Shown: positions 11,217 through 51,651 of the stretch, in pieces
Numbering within the stretch: position 1 is the first letter of the stretch
How the letters are laid out: the number at the start of each line of letters is the position of its first letter
NCBI RefSeq assembly: GCF_011752065.1
Contig: NZ_JAAIJY010000005.1
Location: forward strand, 1 to 64,000
DNA: 64,000 nucleotides
Reading direction: 5' to 3'
DNA from: Actinomyces sp. ZJ308
GTDB lineage: Bacteria > Actinomycetota > Actinomycetes > Actinomycetales > Actinomycetaceae
Notes under the pieces: generated by a model
The model's input: the letters and a program-made list of their open reading frames with translations, nothing else
Databases searched by the model: none
What the model was told of the DNA's origin: nothing
Translations under genes and position numbers: made by a program

Positions 11217-12074
11217 GTGGAGATACTGCGAGTGCTCAACAACAACGTCGTGCTGGCACGCGACGAGATTGGGCGCGAGGCGATCCTCACCGGCAGGGGA
11301 CTCGGATTCCAGCGCAAGCGTGGCCAGAGCGTCGACACCTCCCTCATCTCACGTCGCTACATCCCCGCCGACAACGCCCAGTCGGTGGCCGAGGTCATTG
11401 CCGGGATCCCGCTTGAGCGCCTGGCTCTCGCCGAGCGCGTCTTCCGTCAGGCGGCCCGGAAGCTGGGAACGGATGTCCCCTCCTCGAGCGTCATCGCCGT
11501 CGTCGACCACATCAACCAGGCCATGGAGCGGGTCCGTCAGGGACTGACCATGGACTATCCGCTGCGCGCAGAGGTCGCCCACCTGCACCCCGAGGAGCTG
11601 CGACTGGCCGAGGCCATGGTCGAGGAGATCAATGCCGCGCAGGAGATCCAGCTGCCCGGCGGTGAGGCCGTTGCCCTGGCCCTCCACCTCTTCACCGCCG
11701 CCATCGGTGCCCCCTCGGCGCAGGCCGCCAGCGAGCAGTCCAGGCTCATCGGCCAGGTCATGGGACTGCTGGAGAAGACCCTCGGGGAGGCCTTCGACCC
11801 CGACTCCGTCAACGCTGCCCGCTTCGCGGTTCACCTGCGCTACTTCCTGGTGCGAGCGCGCACCTCCGTCCAGATCGAGGACGGTACCGCCTCCCTGGTG
11901 ACCCAGGCGCTTCGCGTTTCCCACCCCGACTCCTACCGTGTGGCTCTACGCATCCGGGACCTGCTGGAGATCCGACTGGGCACCACCGTGACAGCCGATG
12001 AGACCGCCTACCTCGCTCTGCACGTGGCCCGGCTGACCTCCGCCCTCCCACAGACCACTCAAGGTGACACGTAA
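11217..12074 (+). CDS. BglG/LicT-family transcriptional antiterminator
   Basis: The 285-residue protein has an N-terminal RNA-binding CAT domain (about 1-55, ILRVLNNNVVLA). Two PRD domains follow (about 70-170 and 175-280) with conserved regulatory histidines (VVDHINQAM, VAHLHPEEL, AVHLRYFLVR, YLALHVARL). PRD proteins are phosphorylated by PTS components. When active they bind a ribonucleic antiterminator (RAT) and prevent termination. A matching RAT/terminator lies at 12147-12220, right before the PTS gene, so the target is evident. The GTG start has no Shine-Dalgarno; CACAAT at 11205-11210 lies 6 nt upstream, which suggests a leaderless transcript. Confidence 0.92.
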   Translation: MEILRVLNNNVVLARDEIGREAILTGRGLGFQRKRGQSVDTSLISRRYIPADNAQSVAEVIAGIPLERLALAERVFRQAARKLGTDVPSSSVIAVVDHINQAMERVRQGLTMDYPLRAEVAHLHPEELRLAEAMVEEINAAQEIQLPGGEAVALALHLFTAAIGAPSAQAASEQSRLIGQVMGLLEKTLGEAFDPDSVNAARFAVHLRYFLVRARTSVQIEDGTASLVTQALRVSHPDSYRVALRIRDLLEIRLGTTVTADETAYLALHVARLTSALPQTTQGDT

Positions 12075-37857: not shown

Positions 37858-38391
37858 ATGTGCAGCGACGGCGACTTAGTCCCGATAGACCCGCACGAAG
37901 ACGCTCCGCATGTCCACGTGCGTGTGGCGGGTACGGCGGATGCGTCGTGTATCGGCCGCCTGCTGTTCGACTTCAACACCGAGTTCGATACCCCGACGCC
38001 GTCGGCGCAGGACCTCACCTCCAGGTTCCAGACGATGCTGGAACGTCAGGACATCCTGGTGCTGTTGGCCGAGGACAGCAGCACTGACAATCCTCGGGCA
38101 GAAGGTTTCGCCTACCTCACCTTGCGTCCCACACCTTATGGCGACGGGCCGATCGCTGAGCTCGAGGAGCTCTATGTGCGACCGAACGTGCGCAACCATG
38201 GCATCGGTTCCCGGCTGCTCCTGGAGGCGCTGGAACAGGTGAGACAACGGCGTGCGCTTGAGATGCGTATCGGCGTCGATGAGGTCGATCGTGAGGCGCG
38301 ACGGTTTTATGAGCGGCACGGCTTCTCGAACCTGGAGCCCGGTGACAGCAGCCGGATGCTCTGTTATGTCACCGAGCTGGTGGAACCGTGA
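37858..38391 (+). CDS. GNAT-family N-acetyltransferase
   Basis: The 177-residue protein has the GNAT fold. Motif A is ELEELYVRPNVRNHGIGSRLLLEAL (acetyl-CoA loop R-x-x-G-I-G), followed by DEVDREARRFYERHGF in motif B. The substrate is not predictable. It starts 4 nt after pgi and may be translated by coupling; later in-frame GTG codons are possible starts. A rhodanese gene follows 48 nt later. Confidence 0.85.
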   Translation: MCSDGDLVPIDPHEDAPHVHVRVAGTADASCIGRLLFDFNTEFDTPTPSAQDLTSRFQTMLERQDILVLLAEDSSTDNPRAEGFAYLTLRPTPYGDGPIAELEELYVRPNVRNHGIGSRLLLEALEQVRQRRALEMRIGVDEVDREARRFYERHGFSNLEPGDSSRMLCYVTELVEP

Positions 38392-38439
38392 GCAGCTGAT
38401 TCGTTCCGGTGACAACTCACAACCCTTAAGGAGAACACG

Positions 38440-38739
38440 ATGGAGGATATCGGTGTCGACGAGCTGCGTGGGCGGCTCGAGGCGGGGGAGGATCTTGTCG
38501 TCCTCGACGTGCGTGAACCCGACGAGGTGGCGCGTTCGGCGATCTCCGGCTCGGTCAACATCTCTCTGGGGCAGGTAGTCGATCGGATGAGCGAGCTCGA
38601 CCCGGCCAGACCCACTGCAGTCATCTGTGCCGGTGGAGTGCGCTCCGCCAAGGCGATCGAGGCGCTGACCGCGGCCGGCTACGCCGGCGAGCTGGTCAAC
38701 GTCACCGGCGGCATGAAGGCCTGGCTCAGCCAGCAGTAG
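38440..38739 (+). CDS. Single-domain rhodanese
   Basis: The 99-residue protein is one rhodanese domain: VVLDVREPDEVARSAISGSVNI, catalytic Cys63 in the loop CAGGVRS, and VTGGMKAW at the end. Such proteins carry persulfide sulfur in the cytoplasm. AAGGAG lies 6 nt before the ATG. Its 3' end overlaps the convergent HAD gene by 14 bp. Confidence 0.93.
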   Translation: MEDIGVDELRGRLEAGEDLVVLDVREPDEVARSAISGSVNISLGQVVDRMSELDPARPTAVICAGGVRSAKAIEALTAAGYAGELVNVTGGMKAWLSQQ

Positions 38740-46247: not shown

Positions 46248-46679
46248 GTCAGCCTTTCTGAGAATCGACAAACGGTGGAGACTGCGTCAGCAGACTTTCG
46301 GCAAGTCGCCGTGGTCCGCTGGGGCCTGGTCGGCCGCCGCAGAGGCCGAGGGGCTGTGCGGGCCGACTGTCGCCGACTGTCACTGTAACGTGCCTGCTGA
46401 GGACTCGCCTGGGAGGGACAGGCCCACCGTGAGCCCGGGTGAGCCTTTGCACTATGTCGGGGGAGCGCCTGAACCACGGACGATCTTCGTGCACGAGGCC
46501 CGGACGCGGTAGGGTCGATGACGTTGACAGGTGCCGGTTGGTACCCGCCGGCGTCTGGACCCGGATCGCCGTCGCATCGGCCTCGCCTCGCAGGCCGCAA
46601 CCAGCATCCCCGTATCGTCCGGTACCACCTCTTGGAATCGCAGGGCTGTCACAGGCCTGTCGCACACGAAAGGACCTCC
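46248..46679. promoter_or_regulatory. 432-bp divergent control region between zwf and gnd
   Basis: No gene is seen. For gnd, TTCGTG (about 46485-46490), an 18-nt spacer and TAGGGT (46509-46514) form a plausible promoter with a leader of about 160 nt. For zwf, TACAGT on the minus strand (46387-46382) is a weaker -10. The region joins the two arms of the pentose phosphate genes. Confidence 0.4.
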
Positions 46680-48155
46680 ATGAGCAGCTTCACCCCCGCA
46701 CCAGCCACAGCCGACCTCGGTGTCTTCGGGCTGGGGGTGATGGGAGCCAACCTGGCCCGCAACCTGGCTCGTCACGGTCACTCGGTCGCCGTCTTCAACC
46801 GTACGCTCGCCCGCACCGAGCGGCTCATCGAGCGCTACGGCTCGGAGGGCGACTTCGTGCCCGCGGCCGACCTGAAGGACTTCGTGTCCTCCCTGCGCAC
46901 CCCCCGCGTGGCCATCATCATGGTCCAGGCCGGGGCCGCCACCGAGGCGGTCATCGAGGAGCTCGCCGAGCTCATGGAGCCCGGTGACATCATCGTCGAC
47001 GCCGGCAACACCTTCTACACCGACACCCGCCGCCGTGAGGAGTCCCTGCGCGAGCGCGGACTGCACTTCGTGGGGATGGGCGTCTCCGGCGGTGAGGAGG
47101 GGGCGCTCAACGGTCCCTCGATCATGCCCGGCGGCACTGATGACTCCTACAAGCGCCTGGGGCCGATGCTGGAGTCCATCTCCGCCCACGTCGACGGCGT
47201 CCCCTGCTGCACCCACGTGGGTCCCGACGGCGCCGGCCACTTCGTCAAGATGGTCCACAACGGCATCGAGTACGCCGACATGCAGCTCATCGCCGAGGCC
47301 TACGACCTGCTGCGCCACGTCGGCGGGTTCACCGTCCCCGAGATCGCCGAGGTCTTCCGTTCCTGGAAGGACTCCGAGCTCGACTCCTACCTCATCGACA
47401 TCACCACCGAGGTCCTCTCCCACACCGACGCCGCCACCGGGGAGCCGTTCGTCGACGTCGTCGTGGACGCCGCCGGTCAGAAGGGCACCGGGGTGTGGAC
47501 CACCCAGACGGCCCTCGAGCTGGGAGTGGCCGTGCCCGCCATCGCCGAGGCCACCTTCGCCCGTGCCGTCTCCTCAGCCGGCGCCGCCCGAGCCGCCGTC
47601 CAGGCCGCCGACATCGCTCCGGGCACCTCGGCCCCGACCCTGGCGGGCCCCGAGGAGCGACGCGCCTTCGTCGACGCCGTCAGGCAGGCCCTCTACGGCT
47701 CCAAGATCGCAGCCTATGCGCAGGGCTTCGACGAGATCGCCACTGCCTCGCTGCAGTTCGGCTGGAACATCGACCTGGGCGCCATGGCCCGCATCTGGCG
47801 GGGCGGCTGCATCATCCGGGCCCGCTTCCTGGACGACATCACCCGCGCCTACGACGAGGACCCGAACCTGGCCAGCCTTCTGACGGCGCCGGTCTTCGCC
47901 TCCTCCCTGGCCAAGGTGCTGCCCGCCTGGCGCCAGGTGGTGGCCACCTCCGCCACGTCCGGCGTTCCGGCTCCGGCCTTCGCCTCCTCACTCGCCTACG
48001 TCGACCAGCTGCGCTCCCCGCGCCTGCCGGCGGCCCTCATCCAGGGGCAGCGCGACTTCTTCGGCTCCCACACCTACCACCGCACCGACGACGTCGAGGG
48101 CGTCTACCACACGCTGTGGGCCACGCCGGAGCGCACCGAGGAGAAGTGGAGCTGA
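46680..48155 (+). CDS. gnd: 6-phosphogluconate dehydrogenase, decarboxylating
   Basis: Gnd makes ribulose-5-phosphate and NADPH from 6-phosphogluconate. The 491-residue protein has LGVFGLGVMGANLARNLARHG, the catalytic GVSGGEEGALNGPSIMPGG, FVKMVHNGIEYADMQLIAEAY, and IWRGGCIIRARFLDDI. The C-terminus has the usual FFGSHTYHRTD. ATG 46680 is set by AAAGGA 7 nt upstream; the longer frame is not supported. Confidence 0.97.
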   Translation: MSSFTPAPATADLGVFGLGVMGANLARNLARHGHSVAVFNRTLARTERLIERYGSEGDFVPAADLKDFVSSLRTPRVAIIMVQAGAATEAVIEELAELMEPGDIIVDAGNTFYTDTRRREESLRERGLHFVGMGVSGGEEGALNGPSIMPGGTDDSYKRLGPMLESISAHVDGVPCCTHVGPDGAGHFVKMVHNGIEYADMQLIAEAYDLLRHVGGFTVPEIAEVFRSWKDSELDSYLIDITTEVLSHTDAATGEPFVDVVVDAAGQKGTGVWTTQTALELGVAVPAIAEATFARAVSSAGAARAAVQAADIAPGTSAPTLAGPEERRAFVDAVRQALYGSKIAAYAQGFDEIATASLQFGWNIDLGAMARIWRGGCIIRARFLDDITRAYDEDPNLASLLTAPVFASSLAKVLPAWRQVVATSATSGVPAPAFASSLAYVDQLRSPRLPAALIQGQRDFFGSHTYHRTDDVEGVYHTLWATPERTEEKWS

Positions 48156-48216
48156 GGCTCGACCAGGCAGTCATCTGGACCCATATGGACCGCCTCCCGT
48201 CGGTGGATGCCCCAAC

Positions 48217-50943
48217 ATGACGACCTCCGCACCCGCTCGCTCGGACAGCCCCACGAATCTGCGTCACGAGGAGGCCTCCTGGCGGGCCTCGGTGTGCCAG
48301 ATGACCTCCAGCCACGTGGCCATCGACGTCACCACGGCAACCAGTCCCCGGGAGACGGCCTTCAGCGTTCGTTGCCTGATGCGGCTGCGCATCGGGCAAC
48401 GAGCCGAAGGCCTCTGGGTGGACTTCGTGGGGCAGTCGGTCGACTCGCTCAGCGTCGACGGGCAGCGGGTCGCGGCGGCCTGGGACGGAGCCCGTATCGC
48501 CCTGCCGGTCATGGAGCCGGGCGAGCACGCGGTGGAGATCGAGGCACGCGGCCTCTACTCCAACTCGGGTCAGGGGCTGCACCGCTTCCACGACCCGGTT
48601 GACGGCGCCACCTACCTCTACACCCACTTCGAGCCCTCCGACGCCCGTAGGGCCTGGCCGGTCATGGAGCAGCCGGACCTCAAGACCTGCTTCTGCCTGG
48701 AGGTCACCCACCCGCGCGGCTGGACGGTCATGTCCAACACCCGTGCGGTGGCAACCGGCTCAGGCGCCCGCGTAACGGCGGGCGCCGACAGTGTTGCGGA
48801 CAGTGCTGAGACGGATAGCGGCGTCGAGGTGACCTCCTTCGCCCCCTCAGAGCCTCTGCCCAGCTACCTCACCGTGCTGGCGGCCGGCCCCTGGCACCGG
48901 GTGACCGGCCAGTGGAGCTCCCCGAGCCGTCAGGGCCTGACGATCCCCCTGTCATGGTCCTGCCGGTCCAGCCTGGCCGAGCACCTCGACGCTGCCGAGC
49001 TGCTCGATGTCACCCGTGCAGGCCTGGACCTCTACGACCGGGCCTACCGCTACGGCTTCCCCTGGGACTCCTAGGACAGCGTGCTCGTCCCGGAGTACAA
49101 CCTGGGCGCCATGGAGAACCCCGGCTGCGTCACCTTCAACGAGGACCTCTACCTCTTCCGCGGACCGGTCACCCGTTCCCAGAGAGCCGGACGCGCCAAC
49201 ACGATCCTCCACGAGATGTGCCACATGTGGTTCGGCGACCTCGTCACTCCCACCTGGTGGGAGGACACCTGGCTCAAGGAGTCCTTCGCCGACCACCAGG
49301 GCACCTGGGCCGAGGCCGAGGCGGCGGGCTACACCGAGGCGTGGGTGAGCTTCGCCTCCACCCGCAAGGCCTGGGCCTACCTGGAGGACTCCCGGCCGGC
49401 CACCACCCACCCCATCGTGGCGCAGGTCGACGACGTCGAGGCCGCCCGCCAGGCCTTCGACGGCATCACCTACGCCAAGGGCGCCGCCGTTCTCAAGCAG
49501 CTCGTCGCCTACGTCGGCCATGAGGCCTTCCTGGAGGCCTCCGGGCTTCTCTTCGAGCGCCGCGCCTACGGCAACGCCACCCTGGACGACTTCCTGCAGG
49601 TGCTCTCACGGGTCTCAGGCCGCGACATGCAGGACTGGGCCCGAGCCTGGCTCCGCACCGCAGGGCCCTCCGTCATCACCGACGAGCTGATCACCCACGA
49701 GGGGCGGATCGCCTCGCTGACCCTCCGCCAGGAGGGAACCGATCTGGCCACAGGAGCGCCGGTTCTGCGCCCGCACACGCTCGTGGTCGGGCTGTACTCC
49801 TTCGGCGAGGACGGCGCGCTGGTGCGTACCCACCGGCTGCCGGTGACCCTGGAGACCGAGCGGCTCGAGATCACTGAGGCTGAGGGGCTGCCCGCTCCCG
49901 ACGTCGTCCTGGTCAACGACGAGGACCTCACCTACGCCGTCGTGCGGCCAGATGACGCCTCCCTGTCCCGCCTCGCCGCCTGTCTCGGATCCCTCCGAGA
50001 CCCCATGGCCCGGTCGCTGGCCTGGTCGATGCTGCACAACCTTCTGCGCGACGCGGTCATTGGCGCACCACTGTTCGTGGAGACCGTCCTGGCCCATGCC
50101 GACGACGACACCGAGCCGGGCACCCTGGCCACACTGCTGAACCAGGCCCTGCGAGCCGCCTGCCGATACACCGGTCCATGCATGCGTCGCACGCTCCTGG
50201 ACAGGCTCCTCGCCGATGACCCGGCAGGGCACCCGAAGGGATCGAAACCCGCTTGCATGCATGGTGGCTGGGGCAGGCTTCGCGGCGCCGCACCGGGCTC
50301 GGACGTGCAGCTCGTGCGCGCCCGTGCCTGGCTGGAGGCCGCGGGACAGGCGCGGCTGGTCGGTGAGGAGCAGCAGGCCCAGGCGGTGGCCCGTATCCGT
50401 GAGATGCTGAGCGGCGACCTTCCCGGCCTGGAGCTGGACGCCGATCTGCGATGGCGGGCGCTGACGGCCTTGGCGCGGTTGGGGGCCGTCGACCCCGACG
50501 AGCTCGACGTGCAGCGTGAGGCGGATCCCACGGCCAGCGGCATCACCCACCACCTGAGGGCTTCCAGCTCGCTGCCCCGCAGGGGGCTCAAGGAGGAGGT
50601 CCTCGGCCGGCTCCTCCACGATACTGCTTTGAGCAACGACCACATCGACGCCCTCATCGCGGGCTTCGCAGTCGACGCCCACCGTGAGCTGACCGCCCCG
50701 TTCACCACCAGCTACCTCCAGGAGCTTCAGAGGATGTGGTCCGAGCGCGGTCAGGAGATCGCCACACGGCTGGTGACGGGGTTGTTCCCCGCCTGCGGGG
50801 ACGAGGCCGATGCGCAGGCCGTCGAGGACTGGCTCGATACCCATCCCGAGGCGCCGCCGGCTCTGCGTCGGCTGCTCCTCAAGAGCCTCGACGACCTACG
50901 CCGTGCTCTCACCGCCCGTCGTGTCGCCTCGGCGTCGCCCTGA
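48217..50943 (+). pseudogene. pepN: Aminopeptidase N (PepN), interrupted by an in-frame TAG
   Basis: M1-family zinc aminopeptidase, 908 codons, which removes N-terminal residues from peptides. The frame is continuous except for one TAG at 49072-49074 (codon 286). The protein reads ...RYGFPWDS, stop, DSVLVPEYNLGAMENPGCVTF. In homologues this position is normally Tyr (as in ...YDQVFVPEYN, from memory), so TAC to TAG is the simplest explanation. All other key features are present: GAMEN, the zinc site HEMCHMW (His332, Glu333, His336) with the distal Glu in WLKESFADH. The downstream part could start at GTG 49081 but lacks a Shine-Dalgarno and the N-terminal domain. It is a pseudogene unless the stop is an error or is read through. 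Confidence 0.85.
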
Positions 50944-51198
50944 GAAACGAGTCCTCCCCTGAGTTATGAGACCTTCGTCCTAGCCTGAGCAACATCAGTG
51001 GATCCCGTGACCGGTCCGAGACATGTATTCGGTGCTCATGATCACCCTGAGGGGTTGGCTGAGGGCGGACAGTGGGTAGGCTTCTCGCCATTCGCGGCAA
51101 GCCATGTCGTGGTGTTGACTCGACGTCAGTGCAACGAACGGTATGGTGGTGCGTGAGGCGGCGCAACGGGCGCCGCAACGAACCGAGGGGCAGGAATA

Positions 51199-51651
51199 AT
51201 GTCGAGCAGTCCGATCGAGCAGGATCCCTCCTCCACCCAGACCTTCGGGGTTGCCGATGTCGTCAACTCAGTGGAATCCCCGGTGGTGGGGCTGAGCCAG
51301 CAGGACGCCGCCGCGATCGCTGCCCTACCGTCGGGAACGGCGCTTCTCCTCGTCCACCACGGGCCGACCACCGGCGCGCGCTTCCTGCTGGATGCCGAGG
51401 AGACAACCGTGGGACGCCATCCGCGTGCCGACATCTTCCTCGACGACGTCACCGTCTCCAGGAAGCACGCGGTCTTCTCCTCCCTGCCCGACGGCGGCTA
51501 CGGCGTCCGTGACTCCGGTTCCCTCAACGGCACCTATGTCAACCGCACACGCGTCGAGCAGGTGGCCCTCCGCTCCGGTGATGAGGTCCAGATCGGCAAG
51601 TACCGGATGACCTACCACCCCGGCCCCCAGGGCGGAGCCGCGTCTCGGTGA
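51199..51651 (+). CDS. garA: FHA-domain regulator, GarA/OdhI type
   Basis: GarA/OdhI binds and inhibits 2-oxoglutarate-using enzymes; phosphorylation by a PknB/PknG-type kinase switches it off. The 150-residue protein has a flexible N-terminus with Thr residues in SSTQTFGVADV (candidate phospho-site) and a C-terminal FHA domain (about 55-140) with VGRHPRADIFLDDVTVSRKHA and SLNGTYVN. AGGGGCAGGA precedes the ATG. It heads the conserved unit garA-ftsR-bifunctional nuclease-merR. Confidence 0.92.
   Translation: MSSSPIEQDPSSTQTFGVADVVNSVESPVVGLSQQDAAAIAALPSGTALLLVHHGPTTGARFLLDAEETTVGRHPRADIFLDDVTVSRKHAVFSSLPDGGYGVRDSGSLNGTYVNRTRVEQVALRSGDEVQIGKYRMTYHPGPQGGAASR

Follow-up and report, generated by a model that had tools for sequence, protein, structure and literature searches.

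A single in-frame TAG codon in pepN2, a second M1 aminopeptidase gene of Actinomyces sp. ZJ308

The M1 aminopeptidases are recognized by the zinc motifs GAMEN and HExxH...E, and the closest described members for the present locus are the Streptomyces lividans-type PepN proteins, which we take to belong to MEROPS family M1 and which are represented by an NCBIfam model of 832 positions (TIGR02412). Recent pseudogenes carrying a single lesion also occur in bacterial genomes. The gene described here, which we name pepN2, lies in a window of 64,000 nucleotides (the whole stretch of DNA that was analysed) from Actinomyces sp. ZJ308. Both halves of pepN2 fit complementary parts of TIGR02412 (positions 2-246 for the upstream half and 249-831 for the downstream half), and GAMEN and HExxH are present. 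Streptomyces proteins are 44-48% identical to the downstream half among the best 80 of 327 loci. Unlike the S. lividans-type enzymes, pepN2 is broken by a TAG codon; the scores of the two halves, 222.5 and 582.0 bits, both fall below the curated whole-protein cut-off of 591.2 bits because the frame is cut. Among the titles listed for Actinomyces aminopeptidase N in the literature, none pointed to a pepN2 pseudogene.

The interrupted frame and its orthologues

Translation of pepN2 gave a frame of 908 codons followed by a terminal TGA, with one internal stop, preceded by the residues PWDS and followed by DSVLVPEYNLGAMEN (Table 1). The Pfam matches of the two halves are complementary, with Peptidase_M1_N upstream and Peptidase_M1 and ERAP1_C downstream (PF17900 matched in the upstream part, PF01433 in the downstream part with an E-value of 4.1e-42). 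GAMEN, HEMCH and, further downstream, WLKESFA are all found in the translation. The locus thus has the family profile and zinc motifs of an M1 aminopeptidase, and lacks a single uninterrupted frame. The 622 codons past the TAG carry on the same protein, with 81-88% identity to the closest 11 relatives, which rules out a chance open frame. A sequence-only reading of the window had described a pepN-type frame with a lone TAG and perfect downstream catalytic motifs, and both points are confirmed by the translation and the Pfam and NCBIfam matches.

Table 1. Positions of pepN2, its parts and its neighbours in the window
Feature	Position	Strand	Evidence
pepN2, second M1 aminopeptidase gene with one internal stop codon	48217..50943	+	Translation, ORFs, Pfam/NCBIfam, orthologues
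In-frame TAG, codon 286	49072..49074	+	Translation and alignment
Upstream ORF, 285 aa; covers the N-terminal domain and the beginning of the catalytic domain, stops at the TAG	48217..49074	+	ORF list, Peptidase_M1_N
Downstream ORF, 620 aa from GTG; GAMEN/HExxH catalytic core and ERAP1_C domain	49081..50943	+	ORF list, Pfam
Upstream neighbour, 6-phosphogluconate dehydrogenase-like (name from sequence reading)	46518..48155	+	ORF list; same neighbour in G039
Downstream neighbour, FHA-domain protein (name from sequence reading)	51199..51651	+	ORF list; same neighbour in G039

The downstream half was used as the query against 49 genomes of the genus, one per species and including the source genome. 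One of these carries the TAG, 28 have an open frame, two have remnants and 18 lack an orthologue, their sole match being the more distantly related M1 protein (35-47% identity); the pepN2 copy is therefore absent or wrecked in 20 of the 49 genomes. The remnants, in G038 (L169) and G043 (L168), are spread over several frames, with the YDS motif still visible in both. The 28 open-frame orthologues are 50-88% identical to pepN2, and among the matches listed, the relatives at 81-82% identity include Actinomyces oris, A. johnsonii, A. naeslundii and Actinomyces sp. oral taxon 170, which suggests that the source belongs to their group. The closest of those listed, G045 (L014, G045:C1:924811-929343, and L171), is 88% identical over 511 residues, and an in-frame internal deletion removes about 87 residues from its C-terminal part.

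An alignment of 28 rows was built from pepN2 and 27 orthologues, leaving out the two remnants and the divergent 28th open orthologue, G047, which was read separately. The column of the stop holds Tyr in all 27 orthologues (26 TAC and one TAT), G047 also has Tyr at this site, and a stop occurs there in none of them. Tyr also stands at the matching position of a solved alanine aminopeptidase chain, 7v9n. The proposal that the TAG replaces a conserved Tyr through one transversion from TAC is therefore borne out, by Tyr in 28 of 28 open Actinomyces orthologues and by TAC in 26 of the 27 aligned relatives.

Several further observations were made in this comparison. In G039 (L004), Cys follows WFG in HEMCHMWFG, adjoining the zinc motif, at a position that is Asp in the other 27 aligned sequences. 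An apparently conserved in-frame TGA in G007, G036, G037, G042 and G044 was rejected, as these are ordinary terminal stops that the alignments had run past. Searches of plasmids and phages with pepN2 DNA returned two partial, weak plasmid matches and no phage match, so these searches give no sign of a mobile origin for pepN2.

The other M1 gene and selection on pepN2

A second pepN had been suggested as something to look for, and one is present: contig C78 of the source genome carries another M1 gene, open for 875 codons between stops and with no internal stop, whose protein is 39% identical to pepN2 over the part compared. A gene of this type is present in 48 of the 49 genomes, the G015 copy being split over two frames; none was found in G037, a genome that is 89% complete. 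In G015 the sole M1 gene found (L170, G015:C1:1014500-1019000) spans two frames, through either a frameshift or a sequencing error.

The presence and absence of pepN2 were mapped on a midpoint-rooted tree of this one protein from 47 of the 49 genomes, with remnants scored as lost; G015, with its M1 match in two frames, and G037, which gave no second match, were left out. Seven changes were required by Fitch parsimony and seven losses by Dollo parsimony. With the other M1 gene in 48 of 49 genomes and seven changes or losses needed for the distribution of pepN2, it is pepN2 that varies within the M1 pair of the genus. In the clade resembling A. oris and A. naeslundii, which holds G045 as the sister of the source genome, pepN2 is present in 12 of the 12 genomes of the tree, and with the gene in all 12 its dispensability there is not obvious. 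The sequence-only reading had also expected peptide nutrition to change if a major M1 peptidase were lost or duplicated. This nutritional consequence is weakened by a predicted second M1 frame that is whole and by the number of genomes without an intact pepN2.

Apart from the TAG, pepN2 shows no further change at the columns that are invariant in its 27 relatives. A codon model of 12 genomes and 882 codons gave an overall omega of 0.108, with 0.133 on the source branch versus 0.107 elsewhere (lnL -13792.59 versus -13793.08); twice the difference is about 1.0, which is not significant. From the likelihood profile, the approximate 95% upper limit of omega on the source branch is near 0.21, and we infer from this limit that the neutral share of the terminal branch would be no more than about a tenth. 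In the same branch test G039 had an omega of 0.084 and G045 one of 0.168, the highest of the three branches and the one with the larger likelihood gain (twice the difference about 5.3), a hint that relaxation may have affected the deleted copy of G045 and not the stop-bearing copy.

These data suggest that pepN2 was under purifying selection up to recently. Of the features expected of a recent pseudogene, a disabling change absent from the orthologues was found and relaxed selection on the branch was not. A young lesion would leave omega unraised, and so would a wrong base call. With no other decay and no raised omega, the stop is thus either young or not real, as the sequence-only reading had proposed, and the decay data fit both alike.

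Accounts of the TAG codon

We favour a very recent nonsense mutation, which probably inactivates a dispensable second M1 aminopeptidase in the strain or species, and give this reading a probability of about two in three. It builds on the stop itself, the conserved Tyr, the second open M1 gene, the repeated loss in the genus and the lack of decay. If the base is real, translation of pepN2 would end at codon 286 and leave a fragment of 285 residues without the zinc site; the fragments would be inactive, and the other M1 gene would presumably cover the general activity.

The leading alternative, which we consider doubtful, is that the TAG is an error of the base call or the consensus, or a mutation that became fixed in the culture used for sequencing and nowhere else, and that the natural gene is whole. 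A single wrong base would account for a gene that is otherwise free of deviations at invariant columns and has an omega that is not raised. The source assembly is a draft of 80 contigs, and the TAG brings with it a CTAG, a tetranucleotide that is under-represented across the whole window (17 found, this one included, versus 95 expected from shuffles). Against an error, single-substitution errors in a consensus are uncommon, and the source genome has a completeness of 99.98 and a contamination of 0.33. In addition, when 52 ORFs from a 70-kb stretch of G039 were compared with the window, no other lesion was seen in any gene judged credible; many of these ORFs are spurious (the G+C content of the window is 68%), and credibility was judged with the ORF lists. 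The other stops seen in this comparison lie where another ORF is overlapped in antisense or in the wrong frame, within tRNA genes, ahead of a start codon, or in the gap that separates the two genes at 37858-38391 and 38440-38739. Because no other credible gene of the window was judged broken, the assembly does not appear error-ridden, and one wrong base is possible.

Two differences from G039 were recorded in the course of this comparison. The GNAT-like and rhodanese-like genes at 37858-38739 (names from sequence reading) are separate in the window and form a single open frame in G039 (C8 958471-959556, L165). At 11217-12074, an antiterminator-like protein of 285 residues (name from sequence reading) is whole, and it is the G039 frame (L164 14131-14892) that shifts after about residue 160.

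It is improbable that the TAG yields a working product, either as co-translated chains of 285 and 620 residues that reassemble or by readthrough, with the downstream frame under selection. For the first of these, which we regard as very improbable, translation would terminate and re-initiate at the GTG 6 bases beyond the TAG, which opens a frame bearing all the catalytic motifs, and the two polypeptides would assemble as a split M1 enzyme. However, the cut falls inside the catalytic domain and not at a domain border, since the downstream part enters the 218 positions of Peptidase_M1 at position 27; the GTG simply encodes Val, and G014 and G021 have GTA and GTT in its place; and no orthologue examined carries the split.

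Readthrough of the TAG by a suppressor tRNA, stop-codon reassignment or a programmed event would make the full-length enzyme and would suit a frame that is as conserved past the TAG as it is in relatives, but it is scarcely credible, since the called anticodons of all 51 tRNA genes (Rfam RF00005) decode sense codons, with no CUA at any locus by ARAGORN and GTA as the anticodon of the sole tRNA-Tyr, and the site is free of a stop in every orthologue examined. TAG is also an ordinary terminator in the window, ending 6 of 28 frames conserved with G039 (TGA ends 20 and TAA 2), where conserved means at least 84% identity over at least 140 residues and includes a few antisense or otherwise spurious frames. 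PylS gave no match at E<=0.001 in the source genome, a cut-off that was passed in one of 14 genomes in a control search, with weaker matches in 12 more. The RNA surrounding the stop does not fold better than shuffled sequences (z 0.59), and no Rfam family reached its gathering score within 47500-51300. Readthrough by a dedicated system is hence unlikely, and the earlier suggestion of tolerance by readthrough finds no support. Among the tRNA genes, one on a contig of 4374 bases (L146 63-157, G000:C52) was called as Ile with anticodon TAT and has an unusually long variable region, with 95 bases in total.

Comparison with single-lesion pseudogenes

Under the favoured reading of a recent nonsense mutation, the lesion in pepN2 means little by itself, being a further instance of a duplicated peptidase gene that breaks in one lineage; what it belongs to is a pattern of several losses or breakages of the second M1 gene across the genus, with the other M1 gene present in 48 of 49 genomes. 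Compared with recent single-lesion pseudogenes of bacteria, pepN2 differs in that its base is known from the consensus of one assembly of one strain. It resembles them in having one nonsense codon in a conserved frame, a paralogue in the same genome, and remnants of the gene in two other species.
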